This document shows, in pieces, positions 39,653 through 53,535 of a stretch of 64,000 nt of DNA. A model generated the notes under the pieces. The model was not told the origin of the DNA. It saw nothing but the letters and a program-made list of their open reading frames with translations, and did no database searches. How positions within the stretch are numbered: the first letter of the stretch is position 1; the number at the start of each line of letters is the position of its first letter. Origin of the DNA: Nitrosarchaeum sp. (lineage in GTDB: Archaea; Thermoproteota; Nitrososphaeria; Nitrososphaerales; Nitrosopumilaceae); the NCBI GenBank assembly GCA_021414365.1, contig JAIOOR010000003.1, positions 47,014-111,013 on the forward strand. Direction: 5' to 3'. Both the position numbers and the translations under genes were made by a program.

Positions 39653-40303
39653 ATGAAAAACAATTCGAAATTAATTCTATTTGGTTTCATCTTACTATTC
39701 ATTTTATTACCAAATAATGTATTTGCACAAGAATCTGATACAGATGGTGACGGCATCTCTGATTCTACTGATTCTTGTCCAACTGAACCTGAAACCATTA
39801 ACGGATTCCAAGACACAGACGGTTGTCCTGATGTAGTTCCACCATCTGATACAGATGGTGACGGCATCTCTGATTCTACTGATTCTTGTCCAACTCAACC
39901 TGAAACCGTTAATGGATTTGAGGATCTTGACGGTTGTCCTGATGCCCTAGCCCCAAAAGATTCAGATCATGATGGCATCATGGATGATTTTGATTCTTGT
40001 CCAACTCAACCTGAAACAATAAACAATTATCAAGACACAGACGGTTGTCCTGATGTAGCTCAACCAACTGATATTGATAGTGACGGAATTCCAGATTCAA
40101 TTGATTCTTGTCCTACTCAAGCTGAAACCATTAACGGATTCCAAGACACAGACGGTTGTCCTGATGTAGTTACTGGAATTGATACATCAAAATCAGAACC
40201 TGAGCAAAATAACTCCCTCTTGCAATGGACAGCTGTCATTGCTTCTGCCATTACCGCTGTAGGAGCTATAAGTGCTGCAAAACTCCGAAAATCTTCTTCT
40301 TGA
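39653..40303 (+). CDS. Secreted thrombospondin type-3 / Ca-binding repeat protein with C-terminal TM anchor
   Basis: Four DTDGDGISDSTDSCPTEPETINGFQDTDGCPDV-type repeats. Confidence 0.88.
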   Translation: MKNNSKLILFGFILLFILLPNNVFAQESDTDGDGISDSTDSCPTEPETINGFQDTDGCPDVVPPSDTDGDGISDSTDSCPTQPETVNGFEDLDGCPDALAPKDSDHDGIMDDFDSCPTQPETINNYQDTDGCPDVAQPTDIDSDGIPDSIDSCPTQAETINGFQDTDGCPDVVTGIDTSKSEPEQNNSLLQWTAVIASAITAVGAISAAKLRKSSS

Positions 40304-40629: not shown

Positions 40630-41109
40630 TTAGAATCTTGGAATTGCGAATCCTAGTGTTTGGAAGATTTCCATTAATCTTTCAATTGATTGATCTCTGT
40701 TTGGGTTTTTTGAGAGATTTGAAATTATGCTTTGAGCTTCATTGAGTGCATCCGTTTTTGTTATTAGTGTCGCACCAAGTGTTTTACCCTCTTTTGCTTT
40801 CATTACTGCACCATAGTAAGAACACTCTCCTTTTGGAATTACTTGATTAACTCCAAGAGTTACTTTTTCTACGTCTGATTTTAGATCAATCATTGAGACT
40901 GCTAGAGCATAATCTGTTGCACATGCCTTTACAATATAGCTCCAGTAAGGAGAACCTATTTTGTATTGTTTTACAAGTGTCTTAGTTAGATATTTGCTAA
41001 CAGAACCATCATTACCTGCATAAGTTTGAGCTTCACTGGTATGTAATGGGGCTAAGATCAATGAACCTACTAGTGCACTAAATGTAAAGAAAATTATTTT
41101 TTTATTCAT
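40630..41109 (-). CDS. Secreted protein, unknown
   Basis: Signal peptide; preceded by SD-like GGAGGTGA; ATGA overlap with upstream zinc protein. Confidence 0.65.
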   Translation of the reverse strand: MNKKIIFFTFSALVGSLILAPLHTSEAQTYAGNDGSVSKYLTKTLVKQYKIGSPYWSYIVKACATDYALAVSMIDLKSDVEKVTLGVNQVIPKGECSYYGAVMKAKEGKTLGATLITKTDALNEAQSIISNLSKNPNRDQSIERLMEIFQTLGFAIPRF

Positions 41110-41429
41110 AAATTCACCTCCTTGGTTTTTTGACGAGTGTAACGTATGCCTTTTGCAAAAAAAATCAAAGTACTACAAGATAAATGAGTACCTGTGATGA
41201 TGTGTCTCTGGCAATGAAGACATTCCCTCATCGTTGCTCTTTTACACACTACACATACAGCGATAGGGGTCAGAGGACCATCACAGTTTTCACACGCATA
41301 CAAAAAATTGCATGGAAAATTTGAAGAGACAATATCCTGTTGCCTGATTTCTGCTCGGGATGATAAAAAGTCAGGAGAATTGGGACTCTTTGAAAGAAGG
41401 CTTTGGTTTTGCTCTTCGGTATTACTCAT
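41106..41429 (-). CDS. Zinc-knuckle protein (CxxC x3 + H/C)
   Basis: CENCDGPLTPIAVCVVCKRATMRECLHCQRHIITGTHLSC. Confidence 0.7.
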   Translation of the reverse strand: MSNTEEQNQSLLSKSPNSPDFLSSRAEIRQQDIVSSNFPCNFLYACENCDGPLTPIAVCVVCKRATMRECLHCQRHIITGTHLSCSTLIFFAKGIRYTRQKTKEVNL

Positions 41430-41472: not shown

Positions 41473-41484
41473 TTGTGGCATGCC
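41473..41484 (-). promoter_or_regulatory. GGCATGCCACAA element (site A)
   Basis: Exact 12-mer, 44 nt from ATG at 41429. Confidence 0.8.
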
Positions 41485-41536
41485 TTAATTTCAATTGATT
41501 TTAAAACAGTTTAAATCATTGAGTGACTGCTTTGTT

Positions 41537-43447
41537 GTGAATTCATTGAAGTTATCCACCACATTAATTATTGGAACATTTGTAATCTTTCTAATTTTTG
41601 GAATTTATGGATATTATTCATTTTCGATTTCCATTCAAGAAGTCAATAAATTACTTGCATCAAGGAATGAAGGATTTGCATTCAACATGATGCAGGATCT
41701 TGATGAGCATATTGATAAAAGAATTGGGGATTTTAGGCAGATAACTCAATTATCAGTTGTTCAAGATTCATTAAAAACATCAAATGAAAAATTTTCTCAG
41801 ATTACAGACGTACAAAAAGTAATTGAACAACAAGATATAATTAACAAAGAGAAAAATCAACCGTTTATTCCATCCAGTGATGTTGAGCTTACATCAGAGC
41901 TAACTGATTTAATAAATTTATATAGAACAGAATATGACTATGATGTCATTTCTGAGTTATACATTACAAATGCATATGGTGCAAATGTTGCAATTGGTTC
42001 TGGAACTTCTGATTACAGACACGATGATGAGACATGGTGGCAAGAAACAAAATCAAATGGAGTGTACATTGGAGATATTGAATTTAATAAAAAATACAAC
42101 AACTATGCAACAACAATTGGTCTGAGAATTAATGATGAGGATGGAAATTTTCTTGGAATCCTCAGTGTTACTTTGACACTAAATGATTTGATTCATGAAT
42201 TTATCAATGATGCAGAAATTATCAGTATACAAAACCGATCTATTCTTTTAATAAACGAAAAAGGGCAAATAATTTACTTTAACGGCATTCAGGATTTCAA
42301 AGATTTACAACCTGTACCATATTTTGAAAAGATTCAATCCTTGAAAGACGTTGGGACAATAGATATTTCCAGTAACACTGATGAGCTAAGATTGATTTCA
42401 TACTCAAAATCCACTGGGTATAAGCAGTTTGAGGGTTTTGGGTGGACTGCAATAGTAGATCAAACAAGTTCTTCTTTTACTGAGGAATTCATTGATCTAA
42501 AAAATTCATTCCTAGTGATATCTGCTTTGGGAATGACATCCTCAGTAATAATTGGCCTTGTAATGTCGTATTTTATTTCACGACCTTTGCGTTCATTGAG
42601 TCAAATGGCAAAGCAGTTCTCAGTAGGAGAATTTAATTCAAAATTCAAGGACTCAAAAATATCTGAAATCAACATGATTGGCAAATCATTTGACCAAATG
42701 GGAGAATCTTTAAAAAAATTAATTGAAACAGAAAAAAAATTAGCTGAATCTCATGTCAAGATGAAAAACGAACGCCTAGGGGCAATAGGACAGCTTTCTG
42801 CAAGCATGGCACATGATCTGAAAAATCCTCTTGCAACAATTAGAACATCGTCAGCTATAATTCAAAAATTTGGAGACAATAAAGATCCTGAAGTTAAAAA
42901 AGCAATACAAAGAATGAACAGAGCAATATTTCGAATGTCTCACCAGATTGATGACGTACTTAATTTTGTAAGAATGACTCCATTGACTGTGTCTGAAAAA
43001 AAATTATCTGATATCCTCAATAACTCCATTGATTCTCTAGAAATTCCAAAGAACATAAAATTGGAAATCAAAGATTCTGATTTTATCATTTCTTGTGATT
43101 ACAAAAAAATGGAAACTGTATTTTCAAATATTATATTAAATGCTATTCAGGCAATTGGAGATTCGGCTGGAAGTATTCTTATAATATCAAGATCAATCAA
43201 TGGAGAAATCGAGATAAAAATTTCTGATTCTGGCCCAGAGGTAACACAAGAAATTCTAGAAAAAATATTTGAGCCACTTTTTACTACGAAACAAAAGGGA
43301 ACTGGACTGGGATTATCGTCTTGTAAAAACATTATAGAGCAACACGGTGGAAGCATCTCTGTTCAAAACAATCCCACCACTTTTACTATAATTCTTCCAA
43401 AAAAGGACAATAAAACAGTAAGAGATTTTAACGAAAAATCAGAGTAA
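41537..43447 (+). CDS. Sensor histidine kinase (Cache-like sensor, HAMP, HisKA, HATPase)
   Basis: Two TMs; MAHDLKNPLATIRTS H-box; GTGLGLSSCKNIIEQHGG; GTG start favoured by TATA-like TTTAAA 25 nt upstream. Confidence 0.88.
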   Translation: MNSLKLSTTLIIGTFVIFLIFGIYGYYSFSISIQEVNKLLASRNEGFAFNMMQDLDEHIDKRIGDFRQITQLSVVQDSLKTSNEKFSQITDVQKVIEQQDIINKEKNQPFIPSSDVELTSELTDLINLYRTEYDYDVISELYITNAYGANVAIGSGTSDYRHDDETWWQETKSNGVYIGDIEFNKKYNNYATTIGLRINDEDGNFLGILSVTLTLNDLIHEFINDAEIISIQNRSILLINEKGQIIYFNGIQDFKDLQPVPYFEKIQSLKDVGTIDISSNTDELRLISYSKSTGYKQFEGFGWTAIVDQTSSSFTEEFIDLKNSFLVISALGMTSSVIIGLVMSYFISRPLRSLSQMAKQFSVGEFNSKFKDSKISEINMIGKSFDQMGESLKKLIETEKKLAESHVKMKNERLGAIGQLSASMAHDLKNPLATIRTSSAIIQKFGDNKDPEVKKAIQRMNRAIFRMSHQIDDVLNFVRMTPLTVSEKKLSDILNNSIDSLEIPKNIKLEIKDSDFIISCDYKKMETVFSNIILNAIQAIGDSAGSILIISRSINGEIEIKISDSGPEVTQEILEKIFEPLFTTKQKGTGLGLSSCKNIIEQHGGSISVQNNPTTFTIILPKKDNKTVRDFNEKSE

Positions 43448-43453
43448 TTTGTA

Positions 43454-43819
43454 TTGAGTCAGAAAAAGGTCATTCTTATTGTTGATGACGATGTAGATCT
43501 TTTGGAAAATACCTCGTTTTTAATCAAAAGCAGTGGGTATGATGTGGTAATGGCTCAAAATGGTGTTGAGGCAGTTCAAAAATACAAAGAAACAAGCCCA
43601 AATCTAGTCTTAATGGATGTGAGAATGCCAATTCTTGATGGATATGATGCGTTTTTTAAAATAAAGCAATTTGATCAAAATGCCAAAGTCATTTTAATTA
43701 CAGCTTATGCTCATGATGAAAAAAAACACATCAAGGCAAAAAGCCTCAATCTAATTGATACAATTTCAAAGCCATACACAATTGAGCAGCTAGAAGATTC
43801 TATCTCAAAGTATAGTTAG
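43454..43819 (+). CDS. Response regulator receiver (CheY-like)
   Basis: ILIVDDDVDLLENT, VLMDVRMPILDGYDA, SKPY. Confidence 0.93.
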   Translation: MSQKKVILIVDDDVDLLENTSFLIKSSGYDVVMAQNGVEAVQKYKETSPNLVLMDVRMPILDGYDAFFKIKQFDQNAKVILITAYAHDEKKHIKAKSLNLIDTISKPYTIEQLEDSISKYS

Positions 43820-44664
43820 GATTTTAGCTTCTTTATCTGCTTGAATCTGTTTGTATAAAACGATATTGCTTCATCGACAAACCTGTAATACCATTTTTTC
43901 AAGCCAGGATCATTATCGAGTAATTTTTTCCATCTTTTTGATTTATCATTAGTTGATCTCTTTGAAGATATCAGAAGATTTGTGTAAAACCAATATGATA
44001 TCTGGTCTGCAAGATCTTCTTCATTTATCTGCTCAAAGTTACTTTGATATTTTACATTAAGATATGTCATCAATTCATAAATTGGCAAGGCTGTAATATT
44101 TGAGATCTGAATATTATCCATAAACATTCCAGATGCTAGCGTCTTTAGTCTGTCTGTATCATTACCAATAGTTGATTTTAGATATGTCCATCTACCAAAA
44201 ATTTGTGGCAATACATCTGAATATTTTTCTGCCATTTTTTCAATTTCTTTTTCTGAGAGATTGAGCACGTCAAGGCAATACAATATTCCGTGGAGTGATA
44301 ATCTGTAAATATCAGCTGGAGCCTTTTGTAGACTTTTTCCGTCCTTTACTACCAATCCCACATCAAGCAAACCCATAGTGTGTTTTCCCCTTGCCATTCT
44401 TCCTACTAGTAATCTTCTGTAATCTTTTTCTTGAGTTCTAATGTTTGAAGTATCTGAGAGATGTGTTTTTGCCATTCCCCAAGTTGTTAGTCTGCCGTTA
44501 ACTGCAAGTATCTCTAGTAATTTTTGGATATTTTCATGATGTTTTGGTCCTGCCCGATTTCTGTACGAGTATTGTCCAAAGATTTTCTGAGCTGTTGGTC
44601 GTGTATACTGCTTATATGCTAAAAGATTCCCATACACTGCACCCTGTTCTTTTACCGATGGCAT
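43816..44664 (-). CDS. Hypothetical protein, winged-helix-like N-terminus
   Basis: 282-aa ORF; HHENIQKLLEILAVNGRLTTWGMAKTH. Confidence 0.65.
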   Translation of the reverse strand: MPSVKEQGAVYGNLLAYKQYTRPTAQKIFGQYSYRNRAGPKHHENIQKLLEILAVNGRLTTWGMAKTHLSDTSNIRTQEKDYRRLLVGRMARGKHTMGLLDVGLVVKDGKSLQKAPADIYRLSLHGILYCLDVLNLSEKEIEKMAEKYSDVLPQIFGRWTYLKSTIGNDTDRLKTLASGMFMDNIQISNITALPIYELMTYLNVKYQSNFEQINEEDLADQISYWFYTNLLISSKRSTNDKSKRWKKLLDNDPGLKKWYYRFVDEAISFYTNRFKQIKKLKS

Positions 44665-44671
44665 GCCACAA
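44660..44671 (+). promoter_or_regulatory. GGCATGCCACAA element (site B)
   Basis: Exact 12-mer, 43 nt from ATG at 44714; overlaps start codon of divergent 43816..44664. Confidence 0.8.
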
Positions 44672-45050: not shown

Positions 45051-45350
45051 TTATTTTGATATTGCGAATTTTAATATTGATGTAGAATTGGATAAATATT
45101 TTTGATCAATCAAATCTTTTCCTATGAAATTCCAATTTTGATCATGAAATAATTTTAAACAAATATCCATTATTCGATAATGAGGATATCTTTCAAGCAT
45201 TTTCTTTTCACCCATTATTTTGAATTTTTCATACATGTATGTACAACGTATTTCATCTATTTTTTTTACTGATATCTTAGCTAGAGATTCATGCGTGATA
45301 TAATTTGAAAATATCAATATGATCAAAATTAAAATAAGAATTTTTTTCAT
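45051..45350 (-). CDS. Secreted small protein, unknown
   Basis: Signal peptide-like N-terminus. Confidence 0.5.
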   Translation of the reverse strand: MKKILILILIILIFSNYITHESLAKISVKKIDEIRCTYMYEKFKIMGEKKMLERYPHYRIMDICLKLFHDQNWNFIGKDLIDQKYLSNSTSILKFAISK

Positions 45351-45493: not shown

Positions 45494-45505
45494 TTTGTGG
45501 CATGC
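45494..45505 (-). promoter_or_regulatory. GGCATGCCACAA element (site C)
   Basis: Exact 12-mer. Confidence 0.75.
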
Positions 45506-45602
45506 CATGCGTTCATTTGTATTGCTTTTGAATTCTTTTACTAAATACATGTCTTGGTTCTTTGCTGTTTTTCACAGAAAATCTGATTGACATGATAGAT
45601 AT

Positions 45603-45776
45603 CTAGTAATCATCCTCAAAAAATACCCATGATAGTCCTACCATGTCCATAGCAGAAGTGTTTTGCCTTGAGATTATCTCTAAGTATAGTTTTTCATCCT
45701 CTTTTACTGGGATACTGTCAACCAGAATTTTTGTAGCCTCGGAGTGGCTGTTTCTAACATATTGAATTTGTTGCAT
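45603..45776 (-). CDS. KILVDSIPV-family small protein (paralog 1)
   Basis: MQQIQYVRNSHSEATKILVDSIPVKEDEKLYLEII...MVGLSWVFFEDDY. Confidence 0.75.
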   Translation of the reverse strand: MQQIQYVRNSHSEATKILVDSIPVKEDEKLYLEIISRQNTSAMDMVGLSWVFFEDDY

Positions 45777-45822
45777 TTTCAAAATTATTAGGGTATAGAG
45801 ATATTTGTCAATAGTTTCATGT

Positions 45823-45834
45823 TTGTGGCATGCC
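45823..45834 (-). promoter_or_regulatory. GGCATGCCACAA element (site D)
   Basis: Exact 12-mer, 47 nt from ATG at 45776. Confidence 0.8.
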
Positions 45835-45887
45835 ATCTAGATAAATGGCGTTTTCAAAATCATGAAATACTGGAATTTAGATCTGAT

Positions 45888-47174
45888 TTATTGTCTGTAT
45901 GCCCGATACAGTATATCATTGTAATCGTCTTTGAGGGAACTGATCTGACCTCTCAGATCTATAATCTTTTTAGTGTGCATTTCCATTTGGTCATTGAAAT
46001 CAGATTTTTTATTTTTGTCATTGAGTAGTGTTCGTATCATATCTCTTTCATCTTGTATCTGTTTTTGCAGATTGTTAATTTGGTTTTCAAGATCAGGTAT
46101 TTTATCCGACTCTGTGTTTCCTGCCATCTTTACAGAAATTGTATCTGGGTTGATAGCTGTTATCTTTGCTGAAGTCATCTGACAAGTGTTTGCTGAAATT
46201 TTGTTTCCAATCTTTACATTAGATGATTCCTTATCTGAAGATATCATTACTATTGGAAGAGTAATTTGGTTTTTGCCTGCACATGCTTCAAATATTGTAT
46301 CATATGTGTTGGGTGTGCTGATTGATTTTTTTGCAGTTATCAATTTGGCTGAATCTCCTTCTATAGGTTCACCTGTAAATGATAGTTTTTGAATGTTGTA
46401 TTTTTCAGTGGGTACTGCATACACAGTAAAGTATAATCTGTAAAGATCCTCTTTTGCATCGTTTATCTGTTTTCTAAGATCTATTATCTTTAAAATCTGA
46501 CTGGTGTCTGGAGATGATGGATCACCCAGTAATTTTTTTGCAGTATCTAGTTCTTGCTGAAGTGATGCTATCGTTGCTTCTCCATCTGATAATGTCTGAG
46601 AAATATCGCCCTTGTTTAGCAGTGTAACTGTAATGCTATCGGGGTTTGATGCCTTGATAAAAGTGGCACTTAGGACACAGCTATTTTTTTCAATGTTTTC
46701 TGGGATCTCATAGTGTTGTGTTTCACTATCTGATTTTACTATGATATCTGGAACATAGATTTTAAGAAATGATGCACATACTTCAAATGCAAAATCATAT
46801 CCGGCTATAGCACCACTTGAAGACACTGTCCCCGTTTTAGCCTTTATTGGTTGTGCATACAGTTTGTTTATAGTTGAAAATACTGTGGCATCTTGTTTTA
46901 CTTGTGCATCCAAATGTTCTTGTTTGACTGGTTTTGCCCAACCATTTGCTATTAGTTGAATAACATGACTTATTTTTACACATGCAGGAGTACTTGTTGT
47001 TTCTTTGATTAGCTTAAATGTTCCAGTTTCACATGATATATCATCTGCAGATATTCCCAAAGCAATCTGCTTTTTTGGTGGAATAATGTCTGCAAATGCA
47101 TTATGTAGGCTAGAGCCTGATATCATAAAAGATACTGCAAGTAGAGTGAAAATAATTAGAATTTGTTTGTGCAA
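45888..47174 (-). CDS. Secreted coiled-coil protein with internal domain duplication
   Basis: Signal peptide; two FE(V/A)CA...NPD(S/T)I(T/S)V + IIDLR coiled-coil units. Confidence 0.75.
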   Translation of the reverse strand: MHKQILIIFTLLAVSFMISGSSLHNAFADIIPPKKQIALGISADDISCETGTFKLIKETTSTPACVKISHVIQLIANGWAKPVKQEHLDAQVKQDATVFSTINKLYAQPIKAKTGTVSSSGAIAGYDFAFEVCASFLKIYVPDIIVKSDSETQHYEIPENIEKNSCVLSATFIKASNPDSITVTLLNKGDISQTLSDGEATIASLQQELDTAKKLLGDPSSPDTSQILKIIDLRKQINDAKEDLYRLYFTVYAVPTEKYNIQKLSFTGEPIEGDSAKLITAKKSISTPNTYDTIFEACAGKNQITLPIVMISSDKESSNVKIGNKISANTCQMTSAKITAINPDTISVKMAGNTESDKIPDLENQINNLQKQIQDERDMIRTLLNDKNKKSDFNDQMEMHTKKIIDLRGQISSLKDDYNDILYRAYRQ

Positions 47175-47262
47175 TTATTTTTATAGTTTTTAATAGTATT
47201 TAAAACTTGAATTCATATTAGTTGTAATTTTTATTTTCTACAAATTTTATATTTGATTTTTA

Positions 47263-47274
47263 GGCATGCCACAA
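47263..47274 (+). promoter_or_regulatory. GGCATGCCACAA element (site E)
   Basis: Exact 12-mer, 44 nt from ATG at 47318. Confidence 0.8.
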
Positions 47275-47317
47275 TTGTCTAACTATTGTATAATATTTGA
47301 TGTATCATTATTTTATC

Positions 47318-47533
47318 ATGAGTCAAATCTATTTACAACCAAGGCAACCTGAGCCTTCAAAAATACTGGTTGATAGTATCCCAGTAAAAAAAGGTGAAAA
47401 ACTTGAAACAGTACAAGTAAGATGTTTGGATTGTTCTTCACAAACAATACCACATGTTTACACCCGATATTCAGTCCCACTTGTGCTCAAATGCACTAAT
47501 TGTGGCCGCAAGTCCTGGGCTAACGCATCCTAA
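47318..47533 (+). CDS. KILVDSIPV-family small protein with zinc ribbon (paralog 2)
   Basis: MSQIYLQPRQPEPSKILVDSIPVKKGEKLETVQVRCLDC...LKCTNCGRKSW. Confidence 0.8.
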   Translation: MSQIYLQPRQPEPSKILVDSIPVKKGEKLETVQVRCLDCSSQTIPHVYTRYSVPLVLKCTNCGRKSWANAS

Positions 47534-47545
47534 GGCATGCCACAA
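47534..47545 (+). promoter_or_regulatory. GGCATGCCACAA element (site F)
   Basis: Exact 12-mer, 43 nt from ATG at 47588. Confidence 0.8.
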
Positions 47546-47587
47546 ACCCACATCTATGCCCAAGTATGTGTTTGCAGATGATATTCT

Positions 47588-47887
47588 ATGAAACAAACAC
47601 TCTATCTGAAAATAAATTCCACATTTAACCCGTCATTGATTGTACAAACTTCTGAGGCAGCATATCTACAAATTCTACTTGGAGAATTATCTCAAAAAGA
47701 CTACAAAATATTCAAACAAATTATAATTGCAATAAAAACAAACAGTGACACTCAAAGTGTGATACTTGCCTCTGAATTGGCAAGAATAAGAATTCTGGAG
47801 AAAAATATTTGTATGACTTTGGAATTATTGCAGCATTTCAAAACAAAAAATTTGTGTTTATTGGCATATCATGGAATCAAGAAATAA
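47588..47887 (+). CDS. Hypothetical 99-aa helical protein
   Basis: ORF following site F. Confidence 0.6.
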   Translation: MKQTLYLKINSTFNPSLIVQTSEAAYLQILLGELSQKDYKIFKQIIIAIKTNSDTQSVILASELARIRILEKNICMTLELLQHFKTKNLCLLAYHGIKK

Positions 47888-48068
47888 ATTTATTCTCACT
47901 ATAACAATAAGCATTGTTATAGTTATTGTCGGATTTTTTATTTTAGGTCTAGATAAAGTATTAATCAAACCTCTTATTCTCAAAGATTATGCAATTTCAA
48001 ATACGTCTCTCATTTTAGATAGATCAAAATCTCTTATTCAAGTTTCTCAAATGTCCACTACACATTGA
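47871..48068 (+). CDS. Small membrane-anchored protein
   Basis: One N-terminal TM (FILTITISIVIVIVGFFILGL). Confidence 0.5.
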   Translation: MESRNKFILTITISIVIVIVGFFILGLDKVLIKPLILKDYAISNTSLILDRSKSLIQVSQMSTTH

Positions 48069-48138
48069 ATATGAAAAATAAACAAAATATTACAATTTAT
48101 CAACAATGTTTATCAGGCAATGAAATGATGATTTTCTT

Positions 48139-49140
48139 ATGAAGTTTATTTTTATTTTGTTTCTAGTATTTGCAATGACTTATCCAATAACTATTTTTGC
48201 AGAGCCTTCTATCACACTAGACAAAACATCTTACACTACAGATCAAACCATCAAAGTTTCTGGAAAAGTTGTTTTTCAAGAGAATACCTCTCTTGTTATC
48301 CAAATTCGTAGCTCATCAGATATTGTTGCAATTAAACAACTCACCCCATCAAAATCGGGATCATTTTCAACCAGTTTTGATGCAACTGGTCCAAAATGGG
48401 CAGAATCAGGCACATATACCATAATTGTTTCATATGCAGGTGAAAAATCTGAAAAAACATTTGAGTTTTCTATTATCAATGTGTCTGAAAGTGAAACAAA
48501 GATTGAGCCCACTCAAAAGCAGGAACCTCAAAAAACCGAACCTATTCAAGATACACAACCTCAAAAACCCACCCTAAAGATTTCAATGGTGGGCTTTCCA
48601 GATCCCACACTATCACCAAATTATTACATTGACTTGTACAATACAGACTCTGTTTTTAAAAAATTATTTGACACGTCATTTCCAGGATTTAAAATCCAAG
48701 AAATAGTGGGATACAAACCGACTCATATTCCAGGATTTCCAGATTCGGCTCTATCCCCCCAATACTATATTGATAGATATTCCAATGAGACACGATTCAA
48801 GATATGGTTTGATTCACAATTCCCAGATAACACTATTTATGATATTGTTGGAATATCAGATAAAACAAAACAATCGATCCCAAGCTGGATTAAACAGTAT
48901 GCCCAATCATGGTCAAAAGATGAAATTACAGATTCACAATTTGCATCAGGAATTGCAGAGTTAATTCAAGAAAAAATACTTTTGATAAATGGCGATATTG
49001 TAAAAACAAAAAATCAAAATGGAAGCATCCCTTCGTGGTTTAAGAATACTGCTTTATGGTATTCAGAGGGGGTAATCACAGAGGATGATTTTCTACTTGG
49101 ATTACAATACTTGATTGAAAAAGAGATCATAGTAATCTAA
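48139..49140 (+). CDS. Secreted protein: Ig-like domain, two GFPDxxLSPxYYID repeats, two W-rich C-terminal repeats
   Basis: Signal peptide; GFPDPTLSPNYYIDLY / GFPDSALSPQYYIDRY; IPSWIKQYAQSWSKDEITDSQF / IPSWFKNTALWYSEGVITEDDF. Confidence 0.8.
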   Translation: MKFIFILFLVFAMTYPITIFAEPSITLDKTSYTTDQTIKVSGKVVFQENTSLVIQIRSSSDIVAIKQLTPSKSGSFSTSFDATGPKWAESGTYTIIVSYAGEKSEKTFEFSIINVSESETKIEPTQKQEPQKTEPIQDTQPQKPTLKISMVGFPDPTLSPNYYIDLYNTDSVFKKLFDTSFPGFKIQEIVGYKPTHIPGFPDSALSPQYYIDRYSNETRFKIWFDSQFPDNTIYDIVGISDKTKQSIPSWIKQYAQSWSKDEITDSQFASGIAELIQEKILLINGDIVKTKNQNGSIPSWFKNTALWYSEGVITEDDFLLGLQYLIEKEIIVI

Positions 49141-49195
49141 ACATTTTGAATCTAATTATATCAAACTCACAGATGCTTTCCGGATAAAAATTTAA

Positions 49196-49207
49196 GGCAT
49201 GCCACAA
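49196..49207 (+). promoter_or_regulatory. GGCATGCCACAA element (site G)
   Basis: Exact 12-mer, 43 nt from ATG at 49250. Confidence 0.8.
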
Positions 49208-49249
49208 AACACTAGTTATGACAATATATTTCTAAACTCAAAATCTATC

Positions 49250-49420
49250 ATGTCTACAATCTTAACTCACAGGCAACCTGAGCCTTCAAAAATACTGGTT
49301 GATAGTATCCCAGTAAAAAAAGGTGAAAAACTTGTAACCAAACAAAGCCCAATGCAATTCACATGTGAAGATCTGATCGGGCTCACATGGGTTCTATTTG
49401 ATAAGGGAGATGAGATTTAG
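49250..49420 (+). CDS. KILVDSIPV-family small protein (paralog 3)
   Basis: MSTILTHRQPEPSKILVDSIPVKKGEKLVTKQSPMQFTCEDLIGLTWVLFDKGDEI. Confidence 0.75.
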   Translation: MSTILTHRQPEPSKILVDSIPVKKGEKLVTKQSPMQFTCEDLIGLTWVLFDKGDEI

Positions 49421-51538: not shown

Positions 51539-51691
51539 ATGATCATGAAAACCCAAACAATTCAGAATCGCACCTGGAACAAAATGGTTCATGCTCCATT
51601 CAGAAAGGTCGTAAAATTCGATCTTATTTGTATGGGATTGGGAATCTTAATGGGCATGGGAATAGGTGCTTACTTGGTTGCAGGAGCATAA
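51539..51691 (+). CDS. 50-aa small single-TM protein (Gly/Met-rich helix)
   Basis: MIMKTQTIQNRTWNKMVHAPFRKVVKFDLICMGLGILMGMGIGAYLVAGA; preferred over track ORF 51529..51717 in another frame. Confidence 0.65.
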   Translation: MIMKTQTIQNRTWNKMVHAPFRKVVKFDLICMGLGILMGMGIGAYLVAGA

Positions 51692-51734
51692 CTCCTCAAC
51701 TTACTTTTTTATGTTAGAGTATGGTATATTGGAT

Positions 51735-52691
51735 ATGATGTTTTCTAGAGTAGAGCCTGCATATACGACAAAAGATGGTTGTAGATTGGTTTGGCAAGGA
51801 ACTGATGAGGATGATACAGATACAATAATACTAAATAAAAAAGAATTTGAATCACTCCTTGAGATTTTACAAAAAGATTCTACAGGTACAATAGAATTAG
51901 AAGATCAAATGAGCACCATACTAGTAAATTCTGATACAATTCAATTCAGTCTGAAAGATCATACCCCACTTGAAGCACAAACATTTGAATTTCAAAAAAA
52001 GATTCTTGAATATGCCCAAATTCCTCATGAACCCCAATATGTCTACATAAGCCCAAAAGAATTCTATCCTTCTGTTTGGATTAGAAAAGATGATACAGAA
52101 AAAAAAGATGTCAAAGATAACATTCCAAAACAATCATTACTTCATACGATTTTATCAACAACTCTTCAAACATCTGATAATTCTGATTTATTTCGAATAA
52201 TGTCTACACGACGTTCTACAAGAAAATTCAATAAAACCAAAGTAGAGGATTGGAAAATAGATAAAATCTTAGCAGCGGCTGATACTGCTCCTACGGCTGG
52301 AAATTTTCAGGGGTTTGAAGTTTTTTACATAAAAAATCCAAAAACAAAGGAAGCACTAGTTGAAGCTGCAAACAAACAGCCCTATGTTAACGCACCAGTA
52401 GTTTTGGTATTTTGTATGGATCCATCTAGAATAAAACTTAATTTTCCACAAAACATCTTAGAAAAATTTTCAATGCAAGATGCAACACTTGCAGCATCTT
52501 ATTCACAATTTGCAGCATCTGGTGTGGGACTAAGCTCCATTTGGATAGGCATGTTTGATGAGGAAAAGATCAAATCAATTCTAGGAACAAATTTGAGACC
52601 TTCTTCAATTCTCTGTATTGGTTATCCAGATAAGAAAAGACCTCCAAAATCTAGAAGAAAACTAAAAGAACTCATAAGAATAATTGAATAA
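51735..52691 (+). CDS. Nitroreductase-family protein with ~130-aa N-terminal domain
   Basis: IMSTRRSTRKFNKTKVEDWKIDKILAAADTAPTAGNFQ; start at MMFSRV. Confidence 0.8.
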   Translation: MMFSRVEPAYTTKDGCRLVWQGTDEDDTDTIILNKKEFESLLEILQKDSTGTIELEDQMSTILVNSDTIQFSLKDHTPLEAQTFEFQKKILEYAQIPHEPQYVYISPKEFYPSVWIRKDDTEKKDVKDNIPKQSLLHTILSTTLQTSDNSDLFRIMSTRRSTRKFNKTKVEDWKIDKILAAADTAPTAGNFQGFEVFYIKNPKTKEALVEAANKQPYVNAPVVLVFCMDPSRIKLNFPQNILEKFSMQDATLAASYSQFAASGVGLSSIWIGMFDEEKIKSILGTNLRPSSILCIGYPDKKRPPKSRRKLKELIRIIE

Positions 52692-52734: not shown

Positions 52735-53535
52735 GTGTCTGACCTTATTGATAAAACTGCAAATTATGTTTTAGATCTTGCCAGTCCTCAACGCCTTAAT
52801 ATTTTATTTAAATTATTAAGCAAAGATTCTACCCCCACTGAAATAGCAAAGGAATTAGAATCTACAAAACAAGAAGTTCATAGAAATTTTATTCGATTAG
52901 AAGAAAGTGGGCTTATTGAAAAAAAGAATAATGGTAAATACAGCACTACAACATTTGGCGAATCGGTTTGTACACAGGTTCCAACAATTGTGTTTTTCTC
53001 ACAAAACCAAAAATATTTTGAAGAGCATACTTTTGGAGACATTCCTTACAAATTCAAACTTAGGTGTGGGCAACTCGCAACCAGCCAACACATCAAAGGT
53101 ATCTCAAAGGTATTGGAGCAATGGAAGTCAATATACAAAAATTCTGAGCAATATGTTTATGAAATATTATCTGAAGCCCCTCTTGATTTGATAGAGCCAC
53201 TAGTCAAACAAATTAAAAAAGGAATAAAATTTCAGTATATTTTTTCTGAATCTGCAGTAGTTCCTAAAGGAAGAAAAGCATTATTGAACAAATTAGGATT
53301 TGATAATCTCATTGAAAAAGGACTAGTAGAAAGAAAGATGACAAAAAATGTTCAGACAATAATAGTGCTAAATGAGAAAGAAGCGTGTGTTTTATTTCCA
53401 ACAAATGATGGCGAATCTGATCTTACTGAAATGTTTTACAGTGATGATTCAATGTTTCATGAGTGGTGTCTTGACTATTTCAGATACTGTTGGTATGGTT
53501 CAGATGAATTTATGGAAAGTAAACTAAAGGAATAA
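52735..53535 (+). CDS. wHTH transcriptional regulator with FilR1/DUF1724-like C-domain
   Basis: LASPQRLNILFKLLSKDSTPTEIAKELESTKQEVHRNFIRLEESGLIEK. Confidence 0.82.
   Translation: MSDLIDKTANYVLDLASPQRLNILFKLLSKDSTPTEIAKELESTKQEVHRNFIRLEESGLIEKKNNGKYSTTTFGESVCTQVPTIVFFSQNQKYFEEHTFGDIPYKFKLRCGQLATSQHIKGISKVLEQWKSIYKNSEQYVYEILSEAPLDLIEPLVKQIKKGIKFQYIFSESAVVPKGRKALLNKLGFDNLIEKGLVERKMTKNVQTIIVLNEKEACVLFPTNDGESDLTEMFYSDDSMFHEWCLDYFRYCWYGSDEFMESKLKE

Follow-up and report, generated by a model that had tools for sequence, protein, structure and literature searches.

A candidate two-component module and a shared promoter element ahead of modular small proteins in Nitrosarchaeum

Introduction

About 75% of thaumarchaeal response regulators consist of a receiver (REC) domain alone (Galperin et al. 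2018, PMC5847659). Most of the REC-only genes have no conserved neighbourhood and their functions mostly cannot be inferred; some adjoin genes for predicted ArsR-type DNA-binding proteins (arCOG03067), and archaeal two-component systems seem to work via protein contacts, not through direct transcription (PMC5847659). The FilI/FilR1/FilR2 system of Methanosaeta, cited in the same source, comprises a histidine kinase, a stand-alone REC protein and a winged helix-turn-helix (wHTH) output. Here, a locus of Nitrosarchaeum sp. was analyzed (assembly GCA_021414365.1, contig JAIOOR010000003.1, positions 47,014 to 111,013; the whole 64,000-nucleotide (nt) stretch is called the window), in which genes for a histidine kinase, a REC-only regulator and a 282-residue protein lie close to small genes that share the upstream 12-mer GGCATGCCACAA, three of them for a family of small proteins termed KILV.

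The locus resembles the described REC-only systems in having a histidine kinase and a stand-alone REC protein in a thaumarchaeon. It differs in that the REC gene is accompanied, in dozens of loci, by the gene for a protein without a Pfam HTH match, which may or may not be arCOG03067, and in that operator and targets are defined. In FilR1 the wHTH and REC parts are joined in one protein, whereas here they are encoded by separate genes. As far as the tools used show, a conserved module with an operator and a target list is new, as is the modular small-protein family. As the module comes with a candidate factor for its output, an exactly defined operator and few targets, it makes testable the question of how REC-only regulators alter thaumarchaeal gene expression, and offers a test case of archaeal sensor control. 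In widespread nitrifying (ammonia-oxidizing) archaea it also brings to view a modular small-protein family and a truncated ESCRT-III that appear to be regulated together.

Operator and promoter architecture

Seven exact copies of GGCATGCCACAA were found in the window; they were the only ones in the 1.88-Mb genome, and all lay within 7.7 kb (Table 1). The reversed sequence gave 0 matches in window and genome. With two mismatches allowed, the window contained 12 matches, compared with a mean of 3.3 and a maximum of 10 after shuffling. All seven sites were followed by an ATG 54, 55 or 58 nt downstream, with a TATA-like box in between. Since 10.7% of window positions have an ATG 54-58 nt downstream, the probability of this spacing in 7/7 cases is about 1.6e-7, if the sites are independent. 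An eighth site, with one mismatch and on another contig, had the same ATG spacing. A first-pass annotation of this DNA had placed such a site behind each of the three KILV open reading frames (ORFs), which held beyond chance; four further sites (41473-, 44660+, 45495-, 47534+), the spacing of 54-58 nt, the sensor module and the N-block DNA identity described below were added here.

Across the family Nitrosopumilaceae, 67 distinct sites were collected that fit the operator pattern and have an ATG 54-58 nt downstream. Their logo read GGCAT(A/G)CC(A/G)CAA, followed by a weaker (G/C)(C/T)AT at about +21 to +24, a TATA-like AATAAT at about +29 to +36, and the ATG. The ATG was at exactly 54 nt in 38/67 sites; the spread of 54-58 nt arises because the sites were selected for that window. 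Judged by its sequence, the site is a promoter element of fixed spacing in many species, and the position of the TATA box suggests leaderless transcripts that would start at the ATG.

Relaxed patterns run over the whole genome yielded one credible extra promoter, at C4:111305 (G000:C4:111271-111325; G, L and C numbers denote genomes, loci and contigs), which is of the transcription factor (TF) type, diverged, and followed by a short ORF (MRKSHGKRDSKSKIIFHFDT...). A match at C2:83193 was rejected, as it appears to sit in coding sequence. Sites at the ends of contigs in G134 and G163 were excluded as apparent artefacts of assembly. A literature search for GGCATGCC, the palindrome at the start of the 282-residue protein gene, together with archaea returned nothing relevant. 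At three loci (L047, L049 and L051, in G023, G033 and G040) a conserved operator-TATA promoter was followed by no clear ORF (15-residue frames), and a non-coding RNA is possible there; G040 has this promoter and no homologue of the 282-residue protein.

Table 1. Features of the locus, with positions in the window
Feature	Position	Strand	Remarks
Predicted secreted protein	40630..41109	-	signal-like N-terminus by eye; ATG overlaps end of 41106-41429
107-residue protein, three CxxC pairs	41106..41429	-	homologues behind operator in several genera
Operator of 41106-41429 gene	41473..41484	-	exact site; 55 nt to ATG 41429(-)
Membrane histidine kinase, dCache-HAMP-HisKA-HATPase, proposed sensor	41495..43447	+	Pfam
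REC-only response regulator	43454..43819	+	Pfam Response_reg 1.7e-25; stop overlaps stop of 282-residue protein gene
282-residue protein, proposed winged-helix TF	43816..44664	-	start codon inside GGCATGCC
Operator over start codon of 282-residue protein gene	44660..44671	+	also 54 nt upstream of ATG 44714(+)
Predicted secreted protein	45051..45350	-	relatives (by eye) in L078, L130 directly behind operator
Operator upstream of 45051-45350 gene	45495..45506	-	54 nt to ATG 45452(-)
KILV protein 1, GLSW-tail type, 57 residues	45603..45776	-	ends as in first-pass annotation
Operator of KILV protein 1	45823..45834	-	58 nt to ATG 45776(-)
Operator of KILV zinc-ribbon protein	47263..47274	+	55 nt to ATG 47318(+); TATA-like TATAATAT at about 47291
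KILV protein, zinc-ribbon type, 71 residues	47318..47533	+	ends as in first-pass annotation
Operator of mini-ESCRT-III gene	47534..47545	+	54 nt to ATG 47588(+)
Mini-ESCRT-III, CdvB-like helical fragment, 99 residues	47588..47887	+	profile homology
Operator of KILV protein 3	49196..49207	+	54 nt to ATG 49250(+)
KILV protein 3, GLSW-tail type, 56 residues	49250..49420	+	N-block DNA same as that of 47318

The sensor module and its link to the operator

A HisKA/HATPase_c kinase and an adjoining receiver-domain protein are both encoded in the window, and the module of kinase, REC protein and 282-residue protein was kept in 42-43 of 44 loci. The REC gene lay beside the gene for the 282-residue protein in 42/44, separated by -13 to +35 nt and nearly always tail-to-tail; at L153 and L161, which hold distant paralogues, the two genes had the same orientation. 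HisKA and HATPase_c were detected in 8/9 kinases of other loci (the ninth is two split ORFs), and a dCache match, mostly under the curated cut-off, was obtained in most kinases scanned.

Homologues of the 282-residue protein occurred in 69/252 genomes of the family. The protein belongs to no Pfam or NCBIfam family, a Pfam scan over 48 homologues returned nothing consistent, and its profile gave only chance matches to PDB sequences. The AlphaFold2 model is confident (pLDDT, the predicted local distance difference test, 84.9; pTM, the predicted template modelling score, 0.86) and has helices at 41-56, 61-66 and 72-87 followed by strands, a wHTH-like order within region 41-122, so that a winged helix, if not proven, is likely. 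A second, distant paralogue (45% identity) is present in the same genome (G000:C18:25855-26643, L153); its start carries a separate operator variant, CCATACCGCAA, and kinase and REC genes adjoin this paralogue.

The start codon of the gene for the 282-residue protein was inside the operator in 43/48 homologues. The operator variant followed the clade of the protein, and in most of the loci seen the targets had the matching variant: where the start region was TTGCGGT-ATG or TACGGT-ATG, nearby targets mostly carried GGCATACCGCAA or GGCATACCGTAATACGGTATC instead. Some genomes have two such factors and two operators (e.g. G177, at L078 and L080). Genomes with at least three exact sites carried a close homologue, except G134, where the sites are clustered at contig ends. 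The protein was present in 38/45 genomes with KILV genes compared with 69/252 overall (Fisher p 3e-19, relatedness not controlled), and the KILV genes inspected in genomes that lack a homologue (L031, L032, L034) had no operator and other upstream sequences. The operator at the gene's own start codon and the clade-linked variants hint, indirectly, that the 282-residue protein may bind the operator specifically.

The KILV protein family

The three KILV ORFs were present on the strands first assigned to them, and a search of the whole genome at E<=10 returned these three copies only. Their N-terminal blocks (N-blocks) are EATKILVDSIPVKEDEKL in 45603-45776 and EPSKILVDSIPVKKGEKL in both 47318-47533 and 49250-49420. 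The tails also read as claimed: after the N-block, 47318-47533 continues into a CxxC...CxxC zinc ribbon (CLDC-n-CTNC), and the other two end in a GL(S/T)W tail (GLSWVFFEDDY in 45603-45776, GLTWVLFDKGDEI in 49250-49420). The zinc-ribbon families S27e and zinc_ribbon_6 matched 47318-47533 below threshold, under all curated cut-offs; the likeness lies in the CxxC...CxxC pattern, and the difference in its fusion to the KILV block.

Conservation in related genomes was borne out, with homologues in 45/252 Nitrosopumilaceae genomes. Four C-terminal types (the GL[ST]W tail, two zinc ribbons and a helix) were joined to the same N-block, of the form LVxxxPVKxxxK. A hidden Markov model of the N-block, built solely from GLSW-type members, gave E values of 1e-14 to 6e-9 for the zinc-ribbon members in the genus of the window and of 1.5e-8 and 4e-5 for the helical members; because a GLSW-derived profile finds both kinds of zinc-ribbon member and the helical ones, the C-termini appear to have been swapped. 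The family had been proposed to be modular and co-regulated: the first part stands, and the second stands at the level of sequence, as a promoter element of fixed spacing. The further proposal of a common tag with a variable effector needs qualifying. The block is shared; however, in GLSW-type members the tail (D-x-x-G-L-S/T-W, with G, L and W invariant and D nearly so) is better conserved than the N-block, so the emphasis may be wrong.

It remained the case that the family could not be assigned to a known one, since no family in Pfam, NCBIfam, PHROGs or PDB covers the GLSW-type proteins. AlphaFold2 gave no confident fold for a GLSW-type protein alone (pLDDT 65.5, pTM 0.24), which suits a flexible, peptide-like adaptor without proving it.

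The N-block DNA of 47318-47405 and 49250-49334 was identical at 60/60 nt, whereas in four sister species this gene pair matched at 48-51/60 nt. The two N-blocks would thus have been homogenised recently, pointing to gene conversion. KILV genes at L031, L032 and L039 have another common upstream sequence (AATAAC-n-GTT, then AGAATC), perhaps that of a different regulator.

Proposed regulatory pathway and alternatives

We consider it fairly probable that a two-component system here controls a local regulon of genes for small adaptors through a separate DNA-binding protein. The membrane histidine kinase would sense an external signal and phosphorylate the REC-only response regulator, which would act through protein contact on the 282-residue winged-helix protein encoded tail-to-tail with it. 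That protein would bind GGCAT(A/G)CC(A/G)CAA about 54 nt upstream of leaderless starts, just upstream of the TFB recognition element (BRE) and TATA box, and activate a set of small genes; at the operator over its own start codon, binding would lead to autorepression. The KILV proteins would be the main small output. Each would combine a flexible linear motif at its N-terminus, which probably serves to dock on a single partner common to all, with one of several exchangeable tails (GL[ST]W-acidic, zinc ribbon or helix).

Several observations weigh against this pathway. Sites 44660 and 45495 (2/7) precede very short, poorly conserved ORFs, and G087 has the 282-residue protein and yet one KILV gene (L039) without the operator. 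The weak fold matches of the 282-residue protein were mostly to MarR-type regulators, which speaks for the pathway, but none was significant (best E about 0.1), and a profile of its proposed DNA-binding part found no wHTH in PDB; the winged helix therefore rests on the model and on a reading of the sequence. Residue 91 of the factor and base 9 of the operator matched perfectly in 43 sequences; this covariation was set aside because it goes back to one evolutionary event on the tree and is no proof by itself. The REC protein could act elsewhere, and the choice of activation over repression has the spacing as its only basis.

The KILV proteins may act either as adaptors that serve one partner in common or as peptides that feed back on the module. 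In the latter role, they would bind one of the module's own proteins (kinase, REC or 282-residue), like the small connectors of bacterial two-component systems, and would not be effectors on a separate partner. This is conceivable, if on balance doubtful. It would fit the small size of the protein and its lack of a confident fold alone, as well as the position of the GLSW-type gene as divergent partner of the gene for the 282-residue protein in many genomes; the variable tail and the occurrence of KILV genes in 7 genomes where no homologue of that protein was found speak against it without excluding it.

A second alternative, which we regard as rather unlikely, is that the 282-residue protein represses the target promoters and is relieved by the phosphorylated REC protein. 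Repression in archaea is commonly exerted by blocking TBP/TFB or RNA polymerase, and a site that covers the protein's own start codon agrees with such a role. The target sites, however, lie at a fixed distance upstream of the TATA box and not over the box or the start, an arrangement more typical of activation, which is favoured here for that reason.

It is also unlikely, and somewhat more so, that some other regulator binds the operator, be it a different wHTH protein, a paralogue of TFB or the REC protein itself, and that the 282-residue protein is a mere neighbour or target. A mere target too would be expected to have its start inside the operator, the fold of the 282-residue protein gave no significant match, and further regulators are encoded nearby, such as the HVO_A0261-type wHTH protein at 52735. 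Set against this are the operator variants that track the clade of the 282-residue protein, the close homologues in genomes with at least three exact sites (G134 excepted) and the winged-helix-like model. It is highly improbable that the site is a promoter cassette which moves or duplicates, so that its sharing would reflect only recent copying of small genes with their promoter: the 60 identical nt of 47318/49250 and the diverged TF-type promoter copy on another contig would fit it, but the flanks between operator, TATA box and ATG differ among sites while operator and spacing stay, and the site is kept across genera and ahead of unrelated genes.

Other genes behind the operator

The operator also serves genes without the KILV block. 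In 47588-47887, homology to the Snf7 helical core of ESCRT-III was found: the family profile matched the genome's own CdvB paralogues (probability 96, E 4e-9, 34% identity, 70 columns), CdvB (3e-7) and CdvB2 (1.7e-6) in PDB, and CdvB1/B2 in NCBIfam (0.007). Single members did not reach the Pfam Snf7 threshold. The alignment covers the helical N-terminal part of the CdvB paralogues; unlike archaeal CdvB, the protein has only about 70 such residues and lacks the remaining Snf7 domain and the C-terminal tail, and members of 66-99 residues with about 70 columns aligned do not hold a full Snf7 core with a C-terminal MIT-interacting motif (MIM).

Secreted proteins lie behind the operator in some genera and loci, and cysteine-rich relatives of 41106-41429 do so in several genera; 40630-41109 and 41106-41429 likely share an operon. 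Together with the mini-ESCRT-III, the secreted proteins suggest that the output concerns the membrane, the envelope or the division machinery. Only tentatively would we extend the proposed pathway to one in which the kinase, the REC-only relay and a winged-helix factor of a new family turn on tiny modular adaptors and a truncated ESCRT-III, the tails selecting cargo for one common membrane or division partner.

At L145 (11999-17065), a 1689-residue protein, which we take to resemble an S-layer protein, is encoded next to two paralogues of the 282-residue protein; a variant of the operator lies 60 nt ahead of its gene. Elsewhere in the window, the HVO_A0261-type wHTH regulator lies beside a nitroreductase-family protein (52735-53535 and 51666-52691), and a secreted protein encoded at 39653-40303 has repeated DxDGDGIxDxxDxCP motifs, presumably thrombospondin type 3-like.

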